Source of the DNA: a virus
Virus record (IMG/VR): IMGVR_UViG_3300021185_002592
Location: 1 to 23,946 of that record
Direction: 5' to 3' (one strand)
Length of the DNA: 23,946 bases
The notes beneath the pieces were generated by a model. It was not told the origin of the DNA and did no database searches. It saw only the letters and a program-made list of their open reading frames with translations. This document shows, piece after piece, positions 11,612 to 22,407 of this stretch. Position 1 is the stretch's first letter, and every line of letters starts with the position of its first letter. The position numbers and the translations under genes were made by a program.

Positions 11612-12094
11612 ATGATGGTAACAGTACCCAGTTGGACCTATGAAGGTCGCCTTGTAACACAAATAGAAGATATGCCGAAAGGCACTTACGGATTTATATA
11701 TGAAACAAGACATATACCTAGCGGTAAAAAATACCTAGGTAAAAAAGTACTTTATTTTGAACGAAATAAAAGACTAGGAAAAAAAGCACTAGAAAAACTC
11801 AGGTTAGAGAGAAAAGCTAAAGGTATAGGAGGTAGAACACCCTTAAAGCAAAAAATAATAACAGAGTCTGATTGGGAGGATTATTACGGGTCTCATAAAG
11901 ATATATTGAGATTAGTAAAAGAAGGTGCTCCAAAAGATTTTGAACGTAGAATACTATGCTATGTACCGAATAAGAAGCTTTTAACATATTTTGAATGTAA
12001 ATACCTATTTATAAATGAAGTACTAGAGAACAGAGACAACTACATTAATGATAACGTCTTAGGGAAGTTCTATAGAAAAGATTTCGAAATATGA
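11612..12094 (+). CDS. SegE-like GIY-YIG nuclease
   Basis: This 160-residue protein has the features of the T4 SegE-type GIY-YIG group. YGFIY (26-30) and YLGKK (41-45) stand for the GIY...YIG strands. A basic linker follows, then ESDWEDYYGS (85-94), a conserved motif of this group, and FERRILCY. Glu128 in TYFECKYLF is the likely catalytic acid that binds the metal. It should cut DNA. In T4, Seg proteins are homing endonucleases, while in many marine phages this version looks like a fixed gene. There are two adjacent ATG codons and I use the first. The 35 bases before it hold a short palindrome and no Shine-Dalgarno site. The 3' end overlaps the next gene as ATGA. Confidence 0.85.
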   Translation: MMVTVPSWTYEGRLVTQIEDMPKGTYGFIYETRHIPSGKKYLGKKVLYFERNKRLGKKALEKLRLERKAKGIGGRTPLKQKIITESDWEDYYGSHKDILRLVKEGAPKDFERRILCYVPNKKLLTYFECKYLFINEVLENRDNYINDNVLGKFYRKDFEI

Positions 12095-12510
12095 AGTTAA
12101 GAGATATTCTACTAAAAGAAGGAAATGAATCTTGCCCAGCAGCAACTCAAGACCTGATGTTAAATACTAAAAATAGAGATGCTTCTATAAAAGCAACTCA
12201 TATTCAATATGGTCCATTAAATGTAAGTAAACCCGGTACTTATTGGAAAGATATAGCAAAATACTGGAATACTACAGAAGATGCAGCAAAAGATACAAAC
12301 TGTAGCAACTGTGTAGCATTTGATATCTCACCAAGGATGGATGAATGTATGCCTGGAGTTACATCTGATGAAGATGGACGGTTAGGTTACTGTTGGATGC
12401 ACCATTTTAAATGCCACTCAGCAAGAAGCTGTAGAACTTGGGCTAAAGGAGGACCAATAAAAAAAGACTCTATATCACAAGACTGGCAAGAACGAAACGA
12501 TAATAAGTAA
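12091..12510 (+). CDS. Cys-rich, probably metal-binding protein with capsid-targeting-like leader
   Basis: This 139-residue protein has six Cys: Cys71 and Cys74 as CxxC, then Cys86, Cys101, Cys108 and Cys114. They are spread through NCSNCVAFDI, DECMPG, GYCWMHHFKCHSARSC and end in TWAKGGP. The spacing fits an iron-sulphur or zinc site and loosely recalls HiPIP-like small proteins seen in phages, but it does not prove that family. The N-terminus MKLRDILLKE, followed by Gly, fits a T4-type capsid-targeting leader with cleavage after L-K-E. If cut there, the mature protein would start GNESCPA. It overlaps the nuclease gene by ATGA. It may be packed in the head; function unknown. Confidence 0.7.
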   Translation: MKLRDILLKEGNESCPAATQDLMLNTKNRDASIKATHIQYGPLNVSKPGTYWKDIAKYWNTTEDAAKDTNCSNCVAFDISPRMDECMPGVTSDEDGRLGYCWMHHFKCHSARSCRTWAKGGPIKKDSISQDWQERNDNK

Positions 12511-12514
12511 TATT

Positions 12515-13300
12515 ATGATACAATTACAAGAAATAGTAGGACTACCATCTCTACAGTACCATTTAGATAACAACCTCTCATTACACGAGAATGTCTACCG
12601 TTATAACTCTGAAGCCTTTATACAATTGTTTACTGAGGCAAGACAAGCCCTTAGAGACGGTAAAATAAAACTTAACGAAGAAGATACAGTTCTACTAGAA
12701 ACAACAGATATCGGACTTCATGGAGAATACAATGGCATGAAAGTCCCATTAGACCTACCAATGGTATCATCAGGATACAATGCAATCTTCGAAATAGGGA
12801 ATGTTATTGATGAAATGATAGAAAACGAAGAAATGATAGATGAAGCTTTATCCATAGACGAAATGATAGATTTCGATATGATTAAAGAATTAGTAGAGTC
12901 TATTGGAGGAGTTATAGATATGGATAAATTTAAAAAAGCAGTAAGTATTCAAAATGAAACTTACGATTATAATGGATTTGACATGTTAAAAGCCTCAGTT
13001 AAATATATACCTGAAGCAGAATATAAAGGAAAAAAAGTTGCCCTTAACAAACCAAAACGTGGAGGATCTAAAAAATTCTACGTTTATGTTAAATCGAAGA
13101 AAGGTAATGTAAAAAAGGTATCTTTTGGAGATACTGGATTATCTGTTAAATTCAAAAAGAAAGGTGCTAGAGCATCATTTGCTGCTAGACATAAATGTGC
13201 TACTAAAAAAGATAAAACTAAAGCAGGATACTGGTCTTGTAATATAGGTAGATATTGGAAGTCATTAGGAGGAAGTGCAAACTTCTCCGGATATTGGTAA
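12515..13300 (+). CDS. Two-part phage protein with C-terminal FAARHKC/YWSC domain
   Basis: This 261-residue protein has an N-terminal part with ENVYRYNSEAFIQLFTEAR and TDIGLHGEYNGMKVPLDLP, a pattern I recognise from T4-like marine phages but whose function I do not know. It is followed by an acidic, Met-rich linker (about 90-130: VIDEMIENEEMIDEALSIDE). The C-terminal part (about 166-261) is very basic. It has KKVSFGDTGLSVKF, ASFAARHKCATKKDK and AGYWSCNIGRYWKS, a small domain that recurs in marine phage proteins and may bind DNA or metal. There is no signal peptide. The possible leader (LSLHE near residue 25) is longer than in the neighbours. No Shine-Dalgarno site precedes the ATG. Confidence 0.65.
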   Translation: MIQLQEIVGLPSLQYHLDNNLSLHENVYRYNSEAFIQLFTEARQALRDGKIKLNEEDTVLLETTDIGLHGEYNGMKVPLDLPMVSSGYNAIFEIGNVIDEMIENEEMIDEALSIDEMIDFDMIKELVESIGGVIDMDKFKKAVSIQNETYDYNGFDMLKASVKYIPEAEYKGKKVALNKPKRGGSKKFYVYVKSKKGNVKKVSFGDTGLSVKFKKKGARASFAARHKCATKKDKTKAGYWSCNIGRYWKSLGGSANFSGYW

Positions 13301-13314
13301 AAAGGTACTAAAAC

Positions 13315-13881
13315 ATGGGAGTAAATTCGAATAGTATAAATAATTTTGCAATGAGTGAAATAAAAGCATTCTCTGCATCTGCTGATCAAATAGAGACAAG
13401 TACAAATACTTCTCTCAATGATACATTCCTATACCATTACGCACCAGCATTAACCGGCACCAATAGAAAGTTTAGCTCAGCTAACTCTATAAGTCATAGG
13501 TATCTCGCTCTACAAGCAAATCGCTGCACAGTTACTGTAACTTATCCAACCTCAGGAGCAGTCGGGGGATGGCTATGGAAAGCTTCTGACGGTACTGGAT
13601 ATGCTAATGTACCTAATCAAAAGTTAAATGTAACTCACACTGACCATATAACTAACGGTAGGTCTTTATACCTTAGAGCAACTAGCTATTTAGCTTATAC
13701 CTACATATCACTCTCTATTACACCGGATTACGGATACTCAGTTAGTTCCTACGCTTGGTACTCCAATGAAGATAACTCAGTTTTTGTCACAGCATCTAGT
13801 ACTACATCAACATCATTAACATTGTATTCCTCTACACATGCAGAAACGACTAAAAAGTACTTAAAGTTTTTTGCCACCTAA
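13315..13881 (+). CDS. Beta-rich unknown protein, probably virion-associated
   Basis: No known family is recognised in this 188-residue protein. It is rich in Ser, Thr and Tyr and has alternating strand-like stretches (CTVTVTYPTSGAVGGWLW, SLYLRATSYLAYTYISLSIT, NSVFVTASSTTSTSLTLYSS). That composition is common in phage tail or decoration proteins. It lacks a signal peptide, so it is not likely to be secreted on its own. Its stop overlaps the next start as TAATG. A role as a small tail, fibre or capsid-surface protein is inferred from composition and neighbours. Confidence 0.6.
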   Translation: MGVNSNSINNFAMSEIKAFSASADQIETSTNTSLNDTFLYHYAPALTGTNRKFSSANSISHRYLALQANRCTVTVTYPTSGAVGGWLWKASDGTGYANVPNQKLNVTHTDHITNGRSLYLRATSYLAYTYISLSITPDYGYSVSSYAWYSNEDNSVFVTASSTTSTSLTLYSSTHAETTKKYLKFFAT

Positions 13882-14144
13882 TGAGCAGACCTTATATAGA
13901 AAATAAAGAAGGAGACTATACTGTAAGAGAATTTTCAAAAAATACTTCTACTTTTGAATTTGTATGGCATAGAGATAGAGAAGATAGATATGTACAGACA
14001 ACACATGAAACAGATTGGAAATTTCAGCTTGATAATAAAACACCAGAGAGATTAACAGAAAACAAACTATTTATACCTAAAGAGACCTATCACCGATTGA
14101 TAAAAGGATCTGGGGATCTAAAGGTTAAAATTTTTAAAGTATGA
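13881..14144 (+). CDS. Small cupin-like phage protein
   Basis: This 87-residue protein has the order FEFVWHRDREDRYVQ, WKFQLDN, LFIPKETYHRLIKG and DLKVKIF. I recognise the pattern WHRDxEDR, WxxQxD, IPxxxYHR from small conserved phage proteins. The spacing of His residues in beta-strand context suggests a minimal cupin-type barrel, but metal binding is not shown. It is joined to both neighbours by overlaps (TAATG before, ATGA after), so it is probably made with them. The function is unknown. Confidence 0.6.
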   Translation: MSRPYIENKEGDYTVREFSKNTSTFEFVWHRDREDRYVQTTHETDWKFQLDNKTPERLTENKLFIPKETYHRLIKGSGDLKVKIFKV

Positions 14145-14488
14145 AACTAAGAGATATAATTTTAGAAACAGATTTTGATAAATATAGAGATAAAGAACAA
14201 TCTCTTGCTAGTGAAATAAATAATAAGTTTGGAGGCGATCCTTATGTCTCTATGGGAGAATACGCTGGAGGAAGATCAGATGATGACCCAAGAAAAGGCA
14301 AAGGGTTTGGCTCTGTAACGTTTCGTATGAGAGGAGAATTTAAAGACAGTAAATGGAATCAAATATTAGATTATGTTAAGAGCAAAGGTTTAGACATACA
14401 ACAAGAAAGTAATTATTATGATTCTGAACCGGGAGAAAGAGAGTGGTTTCCAAAAGTGGATTTCCATTTTAATTTAAATGAAAGTTAA
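14141..14488 (+). CDS. Unknown protein with capsid-targeting-like leader
   Basis: This 115-residue protein starts MKLRDIILE and then Thr, almost the same leader as the Cys-rich protein 2 kb upstream (MKLRDILLKE). The I-L-E fits the cleavage rule of T4-type prohead proteases. The remainder is charged and Gly-rich (EYAGGRSDDDPRKGKGFG). It then has strand-like segments (SVTFRMRGEF, KVDFHFNL) around a helix (NQILDYVKSKGLDI), so it may be a small alpha/beta domain. No family is recognised. It overlaps the cupin-like gene by ATGA. It may be a head-internal protein. Confidence 0.6.
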   Translation: MKLRDIILETDFDKYRDKEQSLASEINNKFGGDPYVSMGEYAGGRSDDDPRKGKGFGSVTFRMRGEFKDSKWNQILDYVKSKGLDIQQESNYYDSEPGEREWFPKVDFHFNLNES

Positions 14489-14493
14489 TAAAG

Positions 14494-14922
14494 ATGAAAT
14501 TATCAAGAGTAATACTTGGTGAAATACTATACTACGATCCAGCATTTGAAAAGGTGACGGATCAGCTAAGAGATAAAGGAGCAAAATACTTAGGCTCAGG
14601 AGATTACGGATCAGCTTACCTACTTAATGGAAGAGTTTACAAAGCTACTACAGATGAAGTAGAATTAGAACATGCTGAAGTACTTAAAGGTAAAAAAACT
14701 AATAATTTTGCTAAAATATACGACGTAGAGGTTATAAATCCAAAATTAGGAATTATACAAATGGAAGTTTTAGGAGAGTTTAAAGGAGATATACCGGAAG
14801 AATGGGTAGAGGCGCTAGAAAAAGAATCAACCAGATTAGGTATAGACCCAGATGAACTAGATATTAGACCTTCAAATGTTATGGTCAATCAGAAAAATCA
14901 CTTAAAATTAGTTGATATTTAG
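14494..14922 (+). CDS. Mini protein-kinase-like protein with capsid-targeting-like leader
   Basis: This 142-residue protein follows the protein kinase fold motif by motif. There is a Gly-rich loop LGSGDYGSAY (33-42), Lys50 in VYKAT, a helix-C acid near Glu57/Glu59 and a hinge-like IIQMEVL (87-93). A catalytic loop LDIRPSNVMV has Asp123 and Asn128, and the DFG site is VDI with Asp141. The His of HRD is replaced (ELD), and the protein stops one residue after the DFG Asp, so the activation segment and C-lobe are missing. The N-terminus MKLSRVILGE, followed by Ile, fits a capsid-targeting leader (cleavage after L-G-E). It could be a minimal kinase or a pseudokinase that binds ATP. A gap of only 44 bases follows, so no lost C-lobe is hidden there. 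Confidence 0.65.
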   Translation: MKLSRVILGEILYYDPAFEKVTDQLRDKGAKYLGSGDYGSAYLLNGRVYKATTDEVELEHAEVLKGKKTNNFAKIYDVEVINPKLGIIQMEVLGEFKGDIPEEWVEALEKESTRLGIDPDELDIRPSNVMVNQKNHLKLVDI

Positions 14923-14930
14923 AATTATTT

Positions 14931-14952
14931 TTCTTATATTATAAGATAATAG
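14931..14952 (+). promoter_or_regulatory. Candidate promoter motif before primase
   Basis: TTCTTATATTATAAGATAATAG lies in the 44-base gap before the primase ATG at 14967. It resembles the motifs in the three other longest gaps (19835, 21036, 23041), with the shared outline TATATTA-AG-TATAA. No Shine-Dalgarno site follows it. The call rests on recurrence only. Confidence 0.35.
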
Positions 14953-14966
14953 TTACGGACAACTAC

Positions 14967-15890
14967 ATGGATTATACTTTTTTACTGGGTTCTATTGAGA
15001 ACCTTCTTGGGAAATCTCATAAAAGAGCTAGAGACAATCACGCTTTTCACTGCCCTTTCTGCAATCATAGAAAGCCAAAGCTTGAAATAAACATGGCAAC
15101 TAACGAAGAAGGTAAAAACTTTTGGGAATGTTGGGTATGCCAAACAAAAGGTAGAACTATCCGTTCCCTTCTTAAACAACTAAATACTCCAAAGGATACT
15201 GCAATAGAAGTTCTAAAATATGTACCGAGAGGTTCACAAATTGAATATAGAGAGCTATCTATAGTAGAACTACCGAAAGAGTATCAACCACTTTACTCCG
15301 CTTCAACTACCTCAGTGGTAGCTAACTTAGTAAGAAAATACTTATATGACAGAGGACTTACCGACAATGATTTTATTAAATATAGTATTGGATACTGCAC
15401 AACTGGAGACTATGGAGGACGAGTTATATTCCCAAGTTATACTGAATCCGGTACACTCAATTACTTTGTTGCAAGAAGCTATGATGGAAATTTCTTTAAG
15501 TACAAGAATCCTGAAACTAGCAAAGACATAATATTTTATGAGAACTTAATAAACTGGAATACTCCTATTATTCTATGTGAAGGAGTTTTTGATGCAATAG
15601 CAATCAGAAGAAATGCCGTACCTATACTAGGAAAAAATATGGCTACATCACTATATAAAAAACTATTAACAAGTAAATTAACCGACATCTATATCGCACT
15701 AGATACTGATGCTCAAACAGCCGCTTTAGGTATTGCTGAAAAACTAATATCAGCAGGATTTAGGGTGTATTTAATCGAACTCCCTGATAAAGATCCCTCT
15801 GAGATGGGGTTTATAAACTTTACAGAATTAGTTCAGAACGCAACTGAATTAGACTTTTCTAAAATAATGTTGCAAAAATTAAACTTATGA
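14967..15890 (+). CDS. DNA primase (zinc finger plus TOPRIM, T4 gp61-like)
   Basis: This 307-residue protein has an N-terminal zinc finger, FHCPFCNHRKPK with Cys29/Cys32 and WECWVC with Cys55/Cys58, then a middle region with LYDRGLTDNDF and GYCTTGDYGGRVIFP typical of bacterial-type primases. The TOPRIM core has ILCEGVFDAIAI (Glu205, Asp209) and IALDTDAQ (Asp246, Asp248), the metal-binding acids for primer synthesis. It should make RNA primers at the phage replication fork with a helicase that is not in this window. It is shorter than DnaG and near the size of T4 gp61. The start lacks a Shine-Dalgarno site and follows a 44-base gap with a candidate promoter. The stop overlaps the next gene as ATGA. 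Confidence 0.92.
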   Translation: MDYTFLLGSIENLLGKSHKRARDNHAFHCPFCNHRKPKLEINMATNEEGKNFWECWVCQTKGRTIRSLLKQLNTPKDTAIEVLKYVPRGSQIEYRELSIVELPKEYQPLYSASTTSVVANLVRKYLYDRGLTDNDFIKYSIGYCTTGDYGGRVIFPSYTESGTLNYFVARSYDGNFFKYKNPETSKDIIFYENLINWNTPIILCEGVFDAIAIRRNAVPILGKNMATSLYKKLLTSKLTDIYIALDTDAQTAALGIAEKLISAGFRVYLIELPDKDPSEMGFINFTELVQNATELDFSKIMLQKLNL

Positions 15891-16669
15891 TAAAGCAAGG
15901 TATGAACATTCTAGAACAGAATGACAAAAAAAGATTAGACTTTAACCCCGATTTAAAGCAAATTAACTTTTTAGACCGAAGGGTCTATAAGAGAGGCGAA
16001 GGAGTATATTACCCGTCCGTAACCACTATACTTCAATATATGCCCAAGAATAAATTCTTCGAAACATGGATGAAGGATGTTGGGCATAACGCCGATCTTA
16101 TTATGCGTAAAGCAGGTAAACAAGGCACACAAGTACATGAAGCATGTGAAAAGCTAGTACTAGGAGAAGAAGTTTCGTGGATGGATAATTACGGTAATGC
16201 TAAATACTCTCAAATAGTTTGGGAAATGATTTTAAAATTTGCGGATTTTTGGAGAACACATAAACCCGAATTAATATCTGCAGAAGACTTTGTATGGTCG
16301 GATAAACACAAATACGCTGGAACAGCAGATTTAGTGGTTAAAATGGATGGAGAAGTATGGTTGTTAGATATAAAAACATCTAATAGTATACATAAATCTT
16401 ACGACTTACAATTAGCTTCTTACGCTAAAGGTTTAGAAGAAGCAAAAGGTATTAAAATTCAAAGGACTGGTATAATTTGGTTAAAAGCTCATACGAGATC
16501 TGCTTCTAAAGTAAAAGGCAAGTACCAAGGAAAAGGTTGGCAAATTAAAGTAATAGATGAAATAGAAGAAAATTTTGAACTATTTAAAATGATATATAAG
16601 TTATATAGTTTAGAACATCCTGTAGTTGAACCTATTTATAATAGCTACCCTACTACTCTAAAACTATAA
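15887..16669 (+). CDS. PD-(D/E)XK exonuclease (RecB/Cas4-like)
   Basis: This 260-residue protein carries the PD-(D/E)XK core seen in Cas4, RecB and phage exonucleases. HKYAGTADLVV gives Asp148, VWLLDIKTS gives Asp161 and Lys163, and YDLQLASYAKGL is the usual conserved QxxxY helix. Upstream, VTTILQYMPKNKFFETWM and QGTQVHEACEKL match the substrate-binding front part of this group. It should degrade or process DNA ends in phage replication or recombination. It lacks the four Cys of an iron-sulphur cluster, unlike true Cas4. It overlaps primase by ATGA, so the two form one replication unit. An ILE at residues 8-10 matches the leader rule but is probably chance. Confidence 0.88.
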   Translation: MIKQGMNILEQNDKKRLDFNPDLKQINFLDRRVYKRGEGVYYPSVTTILQYMPKNKFFETWMKDVGHNADLIMRKAGKQGTQVHEACEKLVLGEEVSWMDNYGNAKYSQIVWEMILKFADFWRTHKPELISAEDFVWSDKHKYAGTADLVVKMDGEVWLLDIKTSNSIHKSYDLQLASYAKGLEEAKGIKIQRTGIIWLKAHTRSASKVKGKYQGKGWQIKVIDEIEENFELFKMIYKLYSLEHPVVEPIYNSYPTTLKL

Positions 16670-16672
16670 TGT

Positions 16673-17641
16673 ATGAAAGGAACAAAAAAATTTATTTACG
16701 TATACCTCTTAACAATACTACTAGCTTCGTGCTCATCAGTACAGTTTAAATACTCTACATTAAATCATGCACAGACCGTAGATGGTATATATAACAGCAA
16801 TACAGTATTTGTCGATGTACCAATTGGAACACAAATTGATACATTAAATTACTTTCAACTACAGAGAAAGTTGAGAACTGATTTTAGATTTAGATACGAC
16901 TATGCTCAATATGCACTCAGTCAACCAATATCGTTTGATTGGAATAATAGAACGTTAGGTAATAGGTACAACTTTTACAACCCATATTATAGTAGATCCC
17001 AAATGTGGGATGACTGGGTTTGGGGATATAATTGGAATTCACCTCACAGATGGTCGCCATTTGGGTATGATAGATGGGGATATAACAATTTCGGATGGAA
17101 TAACTACTATGGATGGAATAACTACTATGGATGGAATAACCACGGATGGGGAAGCTATTGGAATAACCACTCACCATTTTATGGTAATCGATGGAATAAT
17201 TATAATAGAAGAGGTAATGTAGCCTATATTAACGGTAGAAGAAGCAGTGGGACTTCTATAGTAGATAGAAGAGCACATGCTGCAATGATAGAAACTTCTA
17301 AACGTAGAAACTTTGTAATTGAAGAAGATGGAGTAAGATGGTATTCTGGTTCAGAACAAAATAATAAAGAAATAATAACACCTCTAGAAAAAGAAGTAAA
17401 GATATTAGAAAAAAGAATAATTAATAGCAGAAGAAATGATAAAACTATCAACACTAATACTAGAATCTACGTCCGCCCCGAAGGCAGTAATAATGGCAGG
17501 TGGAGGGGGAGTAGGCAAATCGTACCTACTAAACCAACTATCCTTAGACAGCCTACAACAGTACAACCCAGACAAGTACGTAGAGGATCCGGATCATCCG
17601 TACCACAACAAACTAGGACCCGCATCAAACCAGGTAGCTAA
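16673..17641 (+). CDS. Phage-encoded lipoprotein with Trp/Asn/Tyr-rich repeats
   Basis: This 322-residue protein has a clear lipoprotein signal: basic start MKGTKK, hydrophobic core IYVYLLTILLA and lipobox LASC with Cys20. It should be lipid-anchored in the envelope. The middle (about 100-185) is rich in Trp, Asn, Tyr and Gly, with three tandem GWNNYY-like units. The C-terminal part is basic and polar. The last ~68 residues (from 17436) are read from DNA that also encodes the leader and P-loop of the next gene in another frame. That tail is low-complexity (Pro, Gln, Arg, Thr) and may be a by-product of the other frame. Phage lipoproteins often block infection by related phages, so a superinfection-exclusion role is possible but unproven. 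Confidence 0.75.
   Translation: MKGTKKFIYVYLLTILLASCSSVQFKYSTLNHAQTVDGIYNSNTVFVDVPIGTQIDTLNYFQLQRKLRTDFRFRYDYAQYALSQPISFDWNNRTLGNRYNFYNPYYSRSQMWDDWVWGYNWNSPHRWSPFGYDRWGYNNFGWNNYYGWNNYYGWNNHGWGSYWNNHSPFYGNRWNNYNRRGNVAYINGRRSSGTSIVDRRAHAAMIETSKRRNFVIEEDGVRWYSGSEQNNKEIITPLEKEVKILEKRIINSRRNDKTINTNTRIYVRPEGSNNGRWRGSRQIVPTKPTILRQPTTVQPRQVRRGSGSSVPQQTRTRIKPGS
17093..17146 (+). repeat. Three tandem 18-base units in the lipoprotein gene
   Basis: The unit GGATGGAATAACTACTAT occurs at 17093-17110 and again at 17111-17128, followed by a diverged third copy at 17129-17146. It encodes repeated Gly-Trp-Asn-Asn-Tyr-Tyr. Looser Trp-Asn and Trp-Gly repeats continue on both sides, which suggests growth and loss of units by slippage. 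Confidence 0.85.
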
Positions 17642-18377
17642 AGATGTAGCAGCAGCTACTGAAGATAAGCAAAGCTTCGTTTGGGATACTACAGCATCAG
17701 GTGCTAGATTTATGTCCCAACTTGATAATATGATGTCCGCAGGGTACGATATTTACATGGTTATGGTGTATGCACATCCTATGATTTCATATGCTGCTAA
17801 TTTTGAACGTTCAGAAAGATCTCTTCCTTCTGTTGCAGTCTTCTCAACATGGAGAAATGCCTATCAATTAATCGGCGAATATCAAGAAAAATTAAAAGGT
17901 AACTTATCAATATACGTTAGTGATAGAGGAGGAAAATACTCTAAAGAAGTAGAGGGTTTCAATAAAGCAGCAGAAAAAGGAGTTGAAGGGATAAAAGAGT
18001 ATTTAAGAGCTTATAACGAAGAAACTGGTGCTGGAAAATCAACATTCTTTAAACCTGTAGAAATGTCTAAAGAAGAAGAAACTGCGTTTAATCAAGCAAT
18101 ACAAGACGTACAGTACGATAAAAATAACCGATCAGAAGATAAAGCTATTAAAACAGCATTCTTAAAAGCATTTAAAAAGAACGGAGTAAGTCCTGGAGGA
18201 GATAAATTAATAGATGCTGTAAAAAAGTACAGAGATAGTAAGAATAAATCTGACGAAAGAAATAATGATGTTCTAAAAAATATTGCAGAAATGCTATTCA
18301 GCCCTGTATTCCAGGAATTATTGAAACATTCAGAAGTAAGTGAAATAGATAGAAACGTACAATCCTTTTTAGCATGA
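17436..18377 (+). CDS. Zeta-toxin-like P-loop kinase with capsid-targeting-like leader
   Basis: In this 313-residue protein the Walker A motif is GGGGVGKS (22-29) after strand AVIM. FVWDTTASG (Asp84) sits where zeta-type kinases have their second acidic motif. GYDIYMVMVYAHPMISYAANFERSER follows the zeta pattern of a strand and an Arg-rich lid, here cut short. Zeta toxins phosphorylate UDP-N-acetylglucosamine; phage relatives may phosphorylate other small molecules. The C-terminal 100 residues are charged and helical. The start MIKLSTLILE, followed by Ser, fits a capsid-targeting leader (cleavage after I-L-E), which supports this ATG. Starting later would still leave the P-loop inside the 206-base overlap with the lipoprotein gene. 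No antitoxin is seen nearby. The stop overlaps the next gene as ATGA. Confidence 0.75.
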   Translation: MIKLSTLILESTSAPKAVIMAGGGGVGKSYLLNQLSLDSLQQYNPDKYVEDPDHPYHNKLGPASNQVAKDVAAATEDKQSFVWDTTASGARFMSQLDNMMSAGYDIYMVMVYAHPMISYAANFERSERSLPSVAVFSTWRNAYQLIGEYQEKLKGNLSIYVSDRGGKYSKEVEGFNKAAEKGVEGIKEYLRAYNEETGAGKSTFFKPVEMSKEEETAFNQAIQDVQYDKNNRSEDKAIKTAFLKAFKKNGVSPGGDKLIDAVKKYRDSKNKSDERNNDVLKNIAEMLFSPVFQELLKHSEVSEIDRNVQSFLA

Positions 18378-19675
18378 TAGCACTTTATCCCGGAGCTTAT
18401 AAACCACCACATAGAGGACATTTTAATGTAGTTAAATCTCTTTTAGATAATTCCTATAATGGATCAGTCTACGATAAAGATAATTACAAAGAAACTGGAG
18501 CAGAACTTCTTAAAGGCAGAAGTAACAAAAAACCTAAGATAGATAAAGTATTAGTTTTTATTGGAGCAGGTGAGAGAAACGGTATAACTAAGGAAGAGTC
18601 AATGTCTATTTGGAATATATACGCTAAATACTTAGGGAATGTAGAGATATTAGATGGAGGAGCAAATCCAATGTTTGCAGCAAAAGATTATGCTCAAGCA
18701 AATCCTGAATTAGAATTTGTTTCTGTGACAGGTATAAGAGGAGATAAAGATTTCGTAGACTTAAGAAGAGTAACTACATTTAAAAATGCTCCCAACGTTC
18801 AAGGACTAGCTCTTGCTGCAGAACCAGGATCAGGAGTCAGAGCTACAGATTTTCGTAATTCTATTTTATCCGGCAATTTAGACACTATTTCCGATTTTTT
18901 CCCTGAAGCACTTTCTAGAGAAGAAATTCTGAGTATACTAACTGATCTAAAAGATAAAATAGTAGCTGAAATATTAAGTTCCAACCTTGAAGGATTTGTT
19001 GAACAGTACTTTAACGTTAATGAAGAAGTAGTAGGTGAAAAAATTAAATGCGATAACTGTGGATGGAGTTGGAATATAGTAGATGGCGGAAATGATTTAT
19101 TTGTATGCCATAAATGTGGACATAATAATGAATCAATAGCAGAAACTAGAAACTTAGATAAAATACCAAGTGCTACAAAAAATAGCATAGACAACCTATA
19201 TAACTATCTATCTAGACTTATCCCACCTTCCTCACTTATTACCCACAACGGTAATCATTTACATATAGGAATTAAAGATATAAACGAGGATTTAAGTGAT
19301 AAACTTGAATTAAAAGATTACATTGCATCACTAACTGAGTATATGATTGACCAAGGGATGAATATACAACCTCTTCCTGAAGTAAAGATAAGAAAAGATG
19401 AAGTAAATGCTTCTAACTTTTTTGGTCGAACTGCCTATTACGATCCAAACTCAAGAGAAATAGTGTTATATGTTTCAGGTAGACACGAGAAAGATATAGT
19501 AAGATCATATTCTCATGAAATGATTCACCATATGCAAAACCTACAGGGTACTCTTCACAACATACAAACTCAAGATACAAATGCAGATAGTGCTTTACTA
19601 GAACTTGAAAAAGAAGCTTACTTACTAGGTAATATAACTTTCCGCAATTGGGAAGATAATTTAAAAAGCAACTAA
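18374..19675 (+). CDS. Fusion: HxGH nucleotidyltransferase, zinc ribbon, HExxH metallopeptidase
   Basis: This 433-residue protein appears to have three parts. The N-terminus has YPGAYKPPHRGHF with His13 and His16 of the HxGH motif and, near 155, SGVRATDFR, like the second signature of cytidylyl/adenylyltransferases (NMNAT or CTP-transferase type). A zinc ribbon lies at about 224-250 (CDNCGWSW with Cys226/Cys229, VCHKCGHNN with Cys245/Cys248). The C-terminal part has YSHEMIHHMQ, an HExxH zincin motif (His381, Glu382, His385), and a possible third ligand in ELEKEAYLLGN (Glu412 or Glu414). The enzyme could make a nucleotide-linked product and also cut peptides, but substrates are unknown. It is coupled to the zeta-like kinase by ATGA, so kinase and transferase may act in sequence. 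Confidence 0.75.
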   Translation: MIALYPGAYKPPHRGHFNVVKSLLDNSYNGSVYDKDNYKETGAELLKGRSNKKPKIDKVLVFIGAGERNGITKEESMSIWNIYAKYLGNVEILDGGANPMFAAKDYAQANPELEFVSVTGIRGDKDFVDLRRVTTFKNAPNVQGLALAAEPGSGVRATDFRNSILSGNLDTISDFFPEALSREEILSILTDLKDKIVAEILSSNLEGFVEQYFNVNEEVVGEKIKCDNCGWSWNIVDGGNDLFVCHKCGHNNESIAETRNLDKIPSATKNSIDNLYNYLSRLIPPSSLITHNGNHLHIGIKDINEDLSDKLELKDYIASLTEYMIDQGMNIQPLPEVKIRKDEVNASNFFGRTAYYDPNSREIVLYVSGRHEKDIVRSYSHEMIHHMQNLQGTLHNIQTQDTNADSALLELEKEAYLLGNITFRNWEDNLKSN

Positions 19676-19678
19676 TAT

Positions 19679-19822
19679 ATGAAATGTCACTGCGGAAGTT
19701 TTGTTATAAAAAGTTACTGGAAAACAGGATCATACTTAACTAAATGCCCAAAATGCAATTCAACAGGCATGATACAAGATAAACCCTATGAAAGAAAATC
19801 TACAAATAAAGTTGGAAAATAG
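19679..19822 (+). CDS. Small zinc-ribbon protein (47 residues)
   Basis: ATG at 19679 opens a 47-residue frame ending with TAG at 19820-19822. The product starts MKCHCGSFVI and has a second Cys pair in TKCPKCNSTG, a compact CxC/CxxC zinc-ribbon layout, with a basic tail. The start is three bases after the previous stop, which fits an operon. It fills a gap that would otherwise be almost 200 bases. Proteins this small are easily missed, but the Cys spacing and tight fit support a real gene. Function unknown; binding to nucleic acid or protein is likely. Confidence 0.65.
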   Translation: MKCHCGSFVIKSYWKTGSYLTKCPKCNSTGMIQDKPYERKSTNKVGK

Positions 19823-19834
19823 AAGAAATTTTCA

Positions 19835-19854
19835 TATATTAAGGTATAATATTG
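19835..19854 (+). promoter_or_regulatory. Candidate promoter motif before the HAD nucleotidase
   Basis: TATATTAAGGTATAATATTG sits in the 50-base gap before the ATG at 19873. It is the clearest copy of the motif shared with 14931, 21036 and 23041. An AAAGG about six bases before the ATG is one of the few ribosome-site-like sequences in the window. Confidence 0.4.
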
Positions 19855-19872
19855 TAAACTAAAATAAAGGTT

Positions 19873-20463
19873 ATGAGTAAAAGTTTAATTGATTTATTAG
19901 AAGCATATCCCCTTCCGGAACAAGAAAATAGACCACCTTACAAGTTATATTGTGATATGGATGGAGTATTAACAGATTTTGAAAGAAGGTTCCACGATAA
20001 GTTAAATACTGTAGGAAAAGAACATTACCCATTACGAGATATCTTAAAAGTAGTAAAACCTAAAGATTTTGAAGCTATATTTGGTATAACAGAATTTTGG
20101 AAGTTCATAGATCAAACAATAGGAGTAGGTTTCTGGGCTGGAATGCCATGGATGGAGAATGGAAAAGACTTATGGAACTTTATAAGTAAGTACAACCCTG
20201 AATTATTAACTTCTCCTTCTAGAGATAATACCTCTAGATTAGGTAAACAACTATGGGTAAAAAACCAACTTAACCCTAAACCTAGAGTTATATTTGCATA
20301 TTCAGCAGATAAACAAAGATATGCTAACGAAAATAGTATACTCATAGACGACAAACCCTCCAACATAGAACAATGGAGAGCAGCAGGAGGAATAGCATTT
20401 AGAGTAAAAAATGGTGACAATACAGAAGCAATAAACGGATTAAAAGAATTAGGATATGAGTAA
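19873..20463 (+). CDS. HAD-family 5'(3')-deoxyribonucleotidase
   Basis: This 196-residue protein has the HAD core. Motif I is LYCDMDGVLTDFERRF with nucleophile Asp28 and acid Asp30, motif II is ELLTSPSR, a conserved Lys sits in GKQLWVKNQL, and motif III is SILIDDKPSNIEQW. The order and size fit 5'-nucleotidases of the NT5C type found in phages, which remove phosphate from (deoxy)nucleoside monophosphates and so adjust nucleotide pools. The N-terminus MSKSLIDLLEAYPLPEQENR precedes the domain and includes L-L-E followed by Ala, so it may be a capsid-targeting leader. The 3' end overlaps the next gene by eight bases. It follows a candidate promoter. Confidence 0.85.
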   Translation: MSKSLIDLLEAYPLPEQENRPPYKLYCDMDGVLTDFERRFHDKLNTVGKEHYPLRDILKVVKPKDFEAIFGITEFWKFIDQTIGVGFWAGMPWMENGKDLWNFISKYNPELLTSPSRDNTSRLGKQLWVKNQLNPKPRVIFAYSADKQRYANENSILIDDKPSNIEQWRAAGGIAFRVKNGDNTEAINGLKELGYE

Positions 20464-21071: not shown

Positions 21072-21428
21072 ATGACACAAAAACAACTACTAGAGTCAGT
21101 ACTCTCAGAATTAGTTCACATTAAGAAACACATGCCTAATGGCGAGCTAAAACAAATGCAGAAAGATGTAGAGTCACTGAAAGAGGATATGTCGGATTTA
21201 AAATTTACTCTACTAAACCCCGAAGACGGTGTAATAGTAAAGACCAACCAAAATTCTGCTTTTAGAAGAAAAATGGAAGGTGGAGAAAAAGAATTTGACG
21301 ATAAAATGTTAGAAGTTAAAGACCTTAAAAGGTGGAGAGACGGAGTAAACAAGGCATTGTGGATTATTTTTGCAACATTATTTGGAGTGGTAGTTAAACT
21401 ACTTTCTGAAGTTATAAAACTAGGTTAA
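21072..21428 (+). CDS. Coiled-coil protein with C-terminal membrane segment (holin-like)
   Basis: This 118-residue protein has a helical, charged N-terminal region (residues 1-45, with heptad-like spacing in LKQMQKDVESLKEDMSDLK), a linker, and one membrane segment at about 95-114 (ALWIIFATLFGVVVKLLSEV). This layout resembles XhlA-type and other small phage proteins that help holins, with the N-terminus in the cytoplasm. A lysis role is only inferred, since no endolysin lies next to it. The start MTQKQLLESVLSEL contains L-L-E and L-S-E, so a processing leader is possible, but a coiled coil explains it as well. The stop overlaps the next start as TAATG. Confidence 0.65.
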   Translation: MTQKQLLESVLSELVHIKKHMPNGELKQMQKDVESLKEDMSDLKFTLLNPEDGVIVKTNQNSAFRRKMEGGEKEFDDKMLEVKDLKRWRDGVNKALWIIFATLFGVVVKLLSEVIKLG

Positions 21429-22013: not shown

Positions 22014-22211
22014 ATGCCAGTAAAAATTAAACCGAGTTCTAAACAGTATAAAAAAGATAAAAACGGTAAAATGACCAGTCAATGGGCATGGGTTCATTAT
22101 ACAGTAACTAATACCAAAACAGAAGAACTAAAAAAACTTTATGTTAGTCCTTCTTATAAAAGAAAGAAAGAAGTAATAAGAAAAGAATTAATAAAGAGAA
22201 ATGCCATTTAA
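22014..22211 (+). CDS. Small basic phage protein
   Basis: I choose the ATG at 22014, one base after the previous stop, which gives 65 residues starting MPVKIKPSSKQYKKDKNGK. The frame is open to 21936, but those extra residues (TPGHQHTPPGQLSVVEE) are simply the upstream gene read in another frame. The protein has WAWVHYTVTNTKTEELKKLY and a basic helical end. I know similar short proteins in T4-like marine phages but no function. It overlaps the next gene by 11 bases. Confidence 0.65.
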   Translation: MPVKIKPSSKQYKKDKNGKMTSQWAWVHYTVTNTKTEELKKLYVSPSYKRKKEVIRKELIKRNAI

Positions 22212-22407
22212 GAAATCTAATTTAAGATCGCTAGTGTTAGAGGTAATGTACGAAGGGGTGCATGATCCTGTTAAGCCAGGTATCTTAAAAAAAAGACTAG
22301 GTAAACTTTCCTGTTCTAAAGTTAAATCTGCAAAAGCAGGACTTAAGGATAAAGGTACACATTACGCTAAGGCATTGCAACGTTATATGAATTACCATTG
22401 TAAATGA
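22201..22407 (+). CDS. Small basic phage protein (KPGILKKRLGKLSC type)
   Basis: This 68-residue protein ends with a pattern familiar from marine phages: VHDPVKPGILKKRLGKLSC followed by GTHYAKALQRYMNYHC. Elsewhere this forms the tail of larger phage proteins. Here it stands almost alone after a leader-like start (MPFKKSNLRSLVLE) that has V-L-E, a weaker match to the processing rule. The basic charge suggests nucleic-acid binding. It overlaps both neighbours (11 bases before, ATGA after). Confidence 0.65.
   Translation: MPFKKSNLRSLVLEVMYEGVHDPVKPGILKKRLGKLSCSKVKSAKAGLKDKGTHYAKALQRYMNYHCK

Follow-up and report, generated by a model that had tools for sequence, protein, structure and literature searches.

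Do proteins with unrelated bodies share a destination when they begin with nearly the same ten residues? The question is raised by a 23,946-bp stretch of DNA from an uncultured, marine, T4-like bacteriophage, IMG/VR record IMGVR_UViG_3300021185_002592, a genome fragment that we analyzed in its entirety (hereafter the window). An original prediction had singled out in it five short hydrophobic N-termini ending in (L/I)-x-E, the cleavage site of the T4 prohead protease gp21, and had interpreted them as T4-type capsid-targeting leaders. This interpretation is supported by the presence of a gp21-type protease in close relatives and by the conservation of the leaders in homologues. Comparison shows that the leader is a real element, selected at the protein level, portable, genome-specific, clustered with head genes and co-occurring with gp21 in relatives.

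We hold it to be highly probable that the leaders are T4-type capsid-targeting propeptides. During head assembly, each would dock its protein onto the scaffold core, and a gp21-type S77 protease would then cut after (L/I)-x-E and free the folded body inside the head. The freed mini protein kinase, zeta-like kinase, Cys-rich protein, probably the nucleotidase, and others would travel with the DNA and likely be injected at infection. By sequence comparison head targeting is very likely, and by analogy cleavage after the Glu is likely; docking onto the core we infer from T4, and injection and any action in the host would follow the same analogy.

Five leaders in the window and their conservation

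All five N-termini read exactly as predicted and end in (L/I)-x-E, and their bodies are indeed unrelated, with no significant mutual similarity (best blastp E ~0.07). All lie on the + strand. MKLRDILLKE (12091..12120) heads a 139-residue Cys-rich protein (open reading frame, ORF, 12091-12510), whose body (12121..12510) has no Pfam family and whose distant GenBank phage homologues are annotated as 'high potential iron-sulfur protein'. MKLRDIILE (14141..14167) belongs to a 115-residue protein (ORF 14141-14488), and MKLSRVILGE (14494..14523) to the mini protein kinase, a minimal protein-kinase fold (14524..14922; G36-x-x-G39, K50, D123, N128, D141) that ends at the DFG-type Asp. MIKLSTLILE (17436..17465) precedes a zeta-toxin-like P-loop kinase body (17466..18377; PF06414, E 5e-9), while MSKSLIDLLE (19873..19902), the weakest of the five, precedes the HAD deoxyribonucleotidase body of an HAD/NT5C nucleotidase (19903..20463; phrog_2643, E 6e-23).

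Conservation of the leaders in homologues, on which the prediction partly hung, is borne out, the Glu at position P1 being among their most conserved residues. In the zeta family it is the sole invariant leader column (55/55 distinct sequences), and in the kinase family E10 is invariant in 27/27 homologues, down to 42% identity, alongside the Gly-loop, Lys50, Asn128 and Asp141. With the slightly looser P3 rule used for homologue counts ([LIVMF] for L/I), distinct N-termini end in [LIVMF]-x-E in 47/47 cases for zeta, 18/18 for the kinase, 19/19 for the 14141 protein, 39/41 for HAD and 25/41 for the Cys-rich protein. The ratio of non-synonymous to synonymous polymorphism (pN/pS) in the leader is 0.31 for zeta (body 0.33), 0.33 for 14141 and 0.37 for the kinase, and these values of about 0.3 indicate that the leader codons of the three families are under purifying selection; the HAD (0.49) and Cys-rich (0.58) leaders are looser. 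Although 12091 and 14141 have MKLRDI in common, three of the five codons after the start differ, so these leaders are not a recent DNA copy. Our certainty is graded: high for the leaders of the zeta kinase, the mini-kinase and 14141, good within this lineage for that of the Cys-rich protein, and moderate for the HAD nucleotidase, the least certain cargo.

The leader also behaves as an addition to the body. In the predicted model of the mini-kinase (pLDDT 88), residues 1-12 are the sole disordered segment, and the body, which matches PDB protein kinases (best E 1e-5, TMq 0.45-0.59), combines the kinase fold with the Gly loop, VAIK Lys, catalytic Asp/Asn and DFG Asp of eukaryotic-like kinases. 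In the zeta protein, the PF06414 match (36.3 bits against a cut-off of 22.3) begins at residue 11, directly past the leader; a PDB sequence search with the zeta and HAD proteins gave no matches, and a search for bacterial homologues of the zeta kinase confirmed none. Structure prediction for the Cys-rich protein gave no usable model (pLDDT 37).

Two observations concern the kinases themselves. At 142 residues (14494-14922), the mini-kinase stops just past the DFG-type Asp with its catalytic motifs complete, and may be the smallest fold among kinases of this type; lacking the C-lobe after DFG, its activity appears uncertain. A lipoprotein-like ORF (16673-17641) overlaps the start of the zeta kinase by ~200 nucleotides in another frame, while the corresponding genes of the relative G011 do not overlap.

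Head genes, prohead protease and leader dialects

At one end of the window lies a giant tail-fibre-type gene; it is followed by a group of small genes, a primase of DnaG type and an exonuclease of PD-(D/E)XK type, and a large ORF is cut off at the other end. Head genes are absent from these 24 kb, and a direct search of the window for a prohead protease gave no match, as expected of a fragment. The same gene order recurs in other contigs, among them a relative of 70.9 kb whose zeta protein is 62% identical, and there it runs on into terminase, portal, gp21, scaffold and gp23. Of 25 related contigs, 13 have a Peptidase_S77 match (E as low as 1e-37) to the gp21-like protease whose absence the original prediction had named as fatal to it, and 13 have a gp23 match. 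Both are present in G025, a 30.5-kb relative whose zeta kinase is 88% identical to that of the window; its prohead protease is of the gp21-type S77 family, and it has the scaffold and portal as well as gp23. The prediction had further looked to the capsid protein for the same cleavage site: (L/I)-x-E was read in the N-terminal region of 12/12 gp23 sequences (GLLE-G, xLLE/MLE-N), and these are candidate processing sites.

By gp21 (77% identity), the closest cultured relative is Flavobacterium phage immuto (MW353175). Its synteny with the window makes a Bacteroidota host likely; at the DNA level, the locus L025, from another relative, matched no cultured phage. Immutovirus (L223) also carries queuosine-type genes and DpdA, suggesting 7-deazaguanine-modified DNA. 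This is of interest here, as the restriction enzyme countered by T4 internal protein I is one that attacks modified DNA.

We counted leader-like starts by a rule fixed from the wording of the prediction: (L/I)-x-E, with the E at residue 8-12 and at least 40% ILVMF before it. It matches 5 of the 24 called ORFs of the window, where internal positions would give 0.5 and shuffled N-termini 1.0; 17436, dropped by the ORF caller for overlapping a longer ORF, lies outside this count, and the exonuclease at 15887 inside it. For 6/25 ORFs, the binomial P is 1e-5 to 5e-4 depending on the null. Leader-like starts are enriched about ten-fold in the closest relatives (seen against expected: G025 9 vs 0.7, G011 11 vs 0.9, G012 17 vs 1.5), and further relatives also show an excess (G015 10 vs 1.4, G003 16 vs 4.1). 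They are gathered near head genes: in the 168-kb contig G003, 12/33 ORFs of a 31-kb head-gene block have them against 4/157 elsewhere (P 1e-7), and in G012 the corresponding figures are 16/41 and 1/30. The tag system is far wider than the window. All loci together hold 518 distinct leader-like ORFs, whose bodies form 137 clusters; chance matches are among them, and the count is an upper bound.

An unbiased test, in which 13-residue N-termini were compared between non-homologous ORFs of one genome at a score of at least 30, with random internal windows as null, gave 70 pairs against 0.4 expected in G001, 34 vs 0.1 in G006, 26 vs 0.8 in G004, 25 vs 0.8 in Immutovirus and 12 vs 0.1 in G012. Signal peptides were considered as the source of this sharing and rejected, 67, 30, 25, 17 and 12 pairs remaining, respectively, once signal-like ORFs were removed. 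The pairs remaining in G003 are not leader pairs, and support from that contig therefore rests on the fixed rule and the clustering. As a positive control, T4 gave three pairs against 0.4 expected, exactly the ipII/ipIII/61.1 set (MKTYQEFIAE/MKTFKEFIKE), and the same test found no pairs in T7, lambda, P-SSP7 and Syn33. T4 gp61.1 (L184:18966), starting MKTFKEFIKE like an internal-protein leader, may be an overlooked head cargo.

The shared N-termini fall into lineage-specific classes: A (MKLRDIILE), B (MNNFDLRKFLTE), C (MKKLLTEWRKYLNE) and D (MKITKQQLKQIIKEE). Depending on the phage, the conserved Cys-rich body has a leader of class A, B or C or none at all, and stays otherwise 74-93% identical as the classes are swapped. 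Its dialect matches that of its genome, class C being found on 16/106 other ORFs in loci with a class-C Cys-rich body and on 0/534 in class-A loci (P 1e-13). Conversely, at the 14141 locus of G003 an unrelated body has a similar leader, MKLTNIIFE. In G012 (L177-L178, 21.6-23.9 kb; also L087), four successive genes and one near gp21 start nearly alike, MNNF(D/N)LRKFLxEN, on unrelated bodies.

It is a further class that hints most directly at the mechanism of head targeting. In this lineage the scaffold has the C-terminus ...RMQKLAGII(K), and a scan of the collection found RMQKLAGI in at least 72 distinct contexts. Among the matches listed, 57 are no more than four residues from a C-terminus. 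Another 13 fall at residues 7-16 of proteins that are short and for the most part unrelated (MKKQILSEEFxRMQKLAGIITE...), two lie elsewhere, and most of the N-terminal copies have an I/L-x-E site within a few residues after. The simplest reading of these sequences is that such cargo leaders borrow the docking tail of the scaffold. Again among the matches listed, the motif is confined almost entirely to the extreme C-terminal ends of gp22-type scaffolds and the extreme N-terminal ends of small, unrelated proteins (L186:16676, L223:25061, L314, L327, L335, L337, L338, L343, L344, L370, L378, L379, L387).

Tagged enzymes and competing explanations

In other contigs, the leaders head an Fe/Mn superoxide dismutase (SOD), two ART-PolyVal ADP-ribosyltransferases (ARTs) and a Nudix hydrolase. 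The SOD has a leader on 22 of 24 contig copies (MKLSKLILE, SDILLE, MKIKDILFE, MRFSKLSNIILE; MRFSKLSN/DIILE in L303, L304 and L308), which heads a longer fusion in L287/L288. Of the remaining two, L302 is ambiguous, and L306, whose contig shows no T4-type head neighbours, has the SOD domain at its very start. Solved bacterial SODs align to the phage protein only from residue 12-13, and the L303 gene comes immediately after ORFs resembling scaffold and gp23 (read by eye). The leader is, as in a T4-type capsid-targeting sequence, a 7-20-residue N-terminal peptide outside the folded domain (kinase residues 1-12; SOD domain from residue 12), and it is portable, the SOD occurring with and without it and the Cys-rich body with three classes or none. 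The tagged phage SOD is present in more than 20 marine contigs (L284-L305, L307, L308), many of them T4-like. The ARTs of L102 and L097 have class C (EWRKYLxE) leaders in parallel to packaged T4 Alt, and they matter because Alt is itself a packaged and injected ART (PMC5512222).

Several results weigh against capsid targeting by T4-type propeptides. The window itself is without gp21. Cyanophage Syn33 has gp21 and no N-terminal sharing, so that a set of tagged cargo does not follow from the presence of gp21. The P1 residue is Asp in 2/41 distinct HAD N-termini, a few Cys-rich homologues have LLKG in place of the site, and the Cys-rich proteins of several phages are leaderless. Finally, a class-A profile failed as a detector of T4 internal proteins, which rank 93-146 among 243 T4 ORFs, with gp22 third and gp24 eighth; class A is therefore a different dialect from the internal-protein leader.

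The affinity of class A with gp22 and gp24 also favours the possibility that the leaders do target the head core, while the proteins are structural or assembly parts (core, vertex, internal shell) and not enzymes delivered to the host. T4 gp24, gp22, gp67 and gp68 are gp21 substrates without being effectors, and some of the tagged proteins, hydrophobic in appearance, lie beside gp21/gp22. However, leaders are borne by intact enzyme families that have no structural role, such as SOD, ART, Nudix, the zeta kinase and a protein kinase with its catalytic residues, and we regard this explanation as unlikely. We give still less credence to a docking peptide for another phage structure (tail, membrane or replication compartment) unrelated to gp21. 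The hydrophobicity of class-A leaders would suit it, but leader genes are grouped with those of the head, the gp21 site is precisely (L/I)-x-E, phages without gp21 show no leaders as a class, and one leader class equals the scaffold C-terminus. Coincidence, in which early codons rich in A and T (ATG AAA TTA ...) together with brief hydrophobic starts yield similar N-termini, might be suggested by a rule match such as exonuclease 15887 and by the lack of a class-A excess in the distant T4-like contig G002 (5 rule matches vs 4.7 expected), but is highly improbable. Against it stand identical residues in different codons (12091 vs 14141), P1 Glu invariance, purifying selection and a strong excess over two nulls; it is refuted for zeta, kinase and 14141, and could hold for single weak cases.

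Capsid targeting may extend to further ORFs of the window. One candidate leader, absent from the original prediction, is a 25-residue segment, MIQLQEIVGLPSLQYHLDNNLSLHE (12515..12589, + strand; ORF 12515-13300), with almost every distinct homologue retaining its L-(H/Y/S)-E, located at about residues 23-25. The prediction had also listed weaker matches at 21072, 21428 and 22201, which fared unequally. The last is retained with lower confidence as a candidate of a separate conserved class, 'KxxLxxII/VL-x-E': MPFKKSNLRSLVLE (22201..22242, + strand; ORF 22201-22407) is an amphipathic class D leader, a class common to unrelated proteins in relatives. The other two are weak, 21072 resembling a coiled-coil XhlA/holin-type protein (phrog_937), and 21428 keeping x-E-S-LRDW while often missing the P3 L/I. 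Exonuclease 15887 (MIKQGMNILE) was rejected as cargo, its rule match being probably due to chance and its Glu not conserved in relatives. A scan for the late promoter TATAAATA gave about two-fold over shuffles, mostly on the opposite strand, and was not used.

A proposed wider address code and its known counterparts

Beyond the window, we lean towards the view that T4-like phages, notably around Immutovirus, share a head-loading address code with phage-specific dialects, one class of which would copy the scaffold C-terminal tail and add a protease site, and that by means of this code dozens of enzymes of a single domain each (kinases, ADP-ribosyltransferases, superoxide dismutase, Nudix, nucleotidase) are loaded into the capsid for injection. 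If this is true, the injected proteome of uncultured phages could be read from sequence. In large marine phages, the function of most genes is not known, and the tag would sort a large share of them into 'head cargo' and point to early-infection weapons, for instance a packaged superoxide dismutase or kinase. The dialects and the scaffold-tail leader provide a route to the targeting mechanism, including the binding partner of the tag in the core, and a cultured phage is available for a direct mass-spectrometry test of the tag reading. Immuto shares with the window's relatives the syntenic region and a tagged kinase, HAD and others, but has mainly class B, class D and scaffold-tail leaders, whereas those of the window are class A.

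The closest counterparts are the targeting sequences of T4 IPI-III and Alt (PMC9026906, PMC3012670), which are likewise short N-terminal propeptides ending in (L/I)-x-E on unrelated proteins, in a lineage with a gp21-type protease. The first ten residues of T4 internal proteins suffice for packaging, residues 4 and 7 serving targeting and 8 and 10 cutting, and Asp at residue 10 blocks cutting while targeting is kept (PMC9026906). P1 Asp occurs naturally in some HAD homologues, and these LLD variants would fit proteins packaged but uncut. The T4 likeness drawn by the original prediction stands as to capsid-targeting type and not as to resemblance to the internal-protein leader, class A being nearer by profile to the gp24 propeptide and the gp22 start. 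Class A does not resemble MKTYQEFIAE, and class C (MKKLLTEWRKYINE) is closer by eye, though resemblance is not a functional requirement. Class-A leaders recall instead the starts of gp24 (MAKINELLRE) and gp22 (MLKEQLIAE), which are however shell and scaffold proteins of T4 and not cargo. Unlike in T4, the dialect here is MKLRDIILE, the cargo includes metabolic and signalling enzymes, and the leaders stand in one operon-like block by the head genes.

In the open-access papers searched, we found no report of a wider code, of dialects, of a scaffold-tail leader or of a leader-tagged phage SOD. The ejection proteins of the giant phages SPN3US and phiKZ (PMC5694885) are also head-packaged, with protease-cut N-terminal segments and paralogues sharing identical N-termini, but their propeptides are mostly longer than 100 residues, with cleavage at A-x-E or S-x-E. 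Polyvalent proteins (PMC5512222) are predicted to be injected with effector domains that include ARTs, and ART-PolyVal carries a leader here; they are however multidomain giants, whereas the proteins described here are single-domain and tagged one by one. Targeting leaders in T4 and longer propeptides in giant phages are already known, and what we describe is very likely a capsid-targeting system of the T4 type in new dialects and with enzymes as its cargo.

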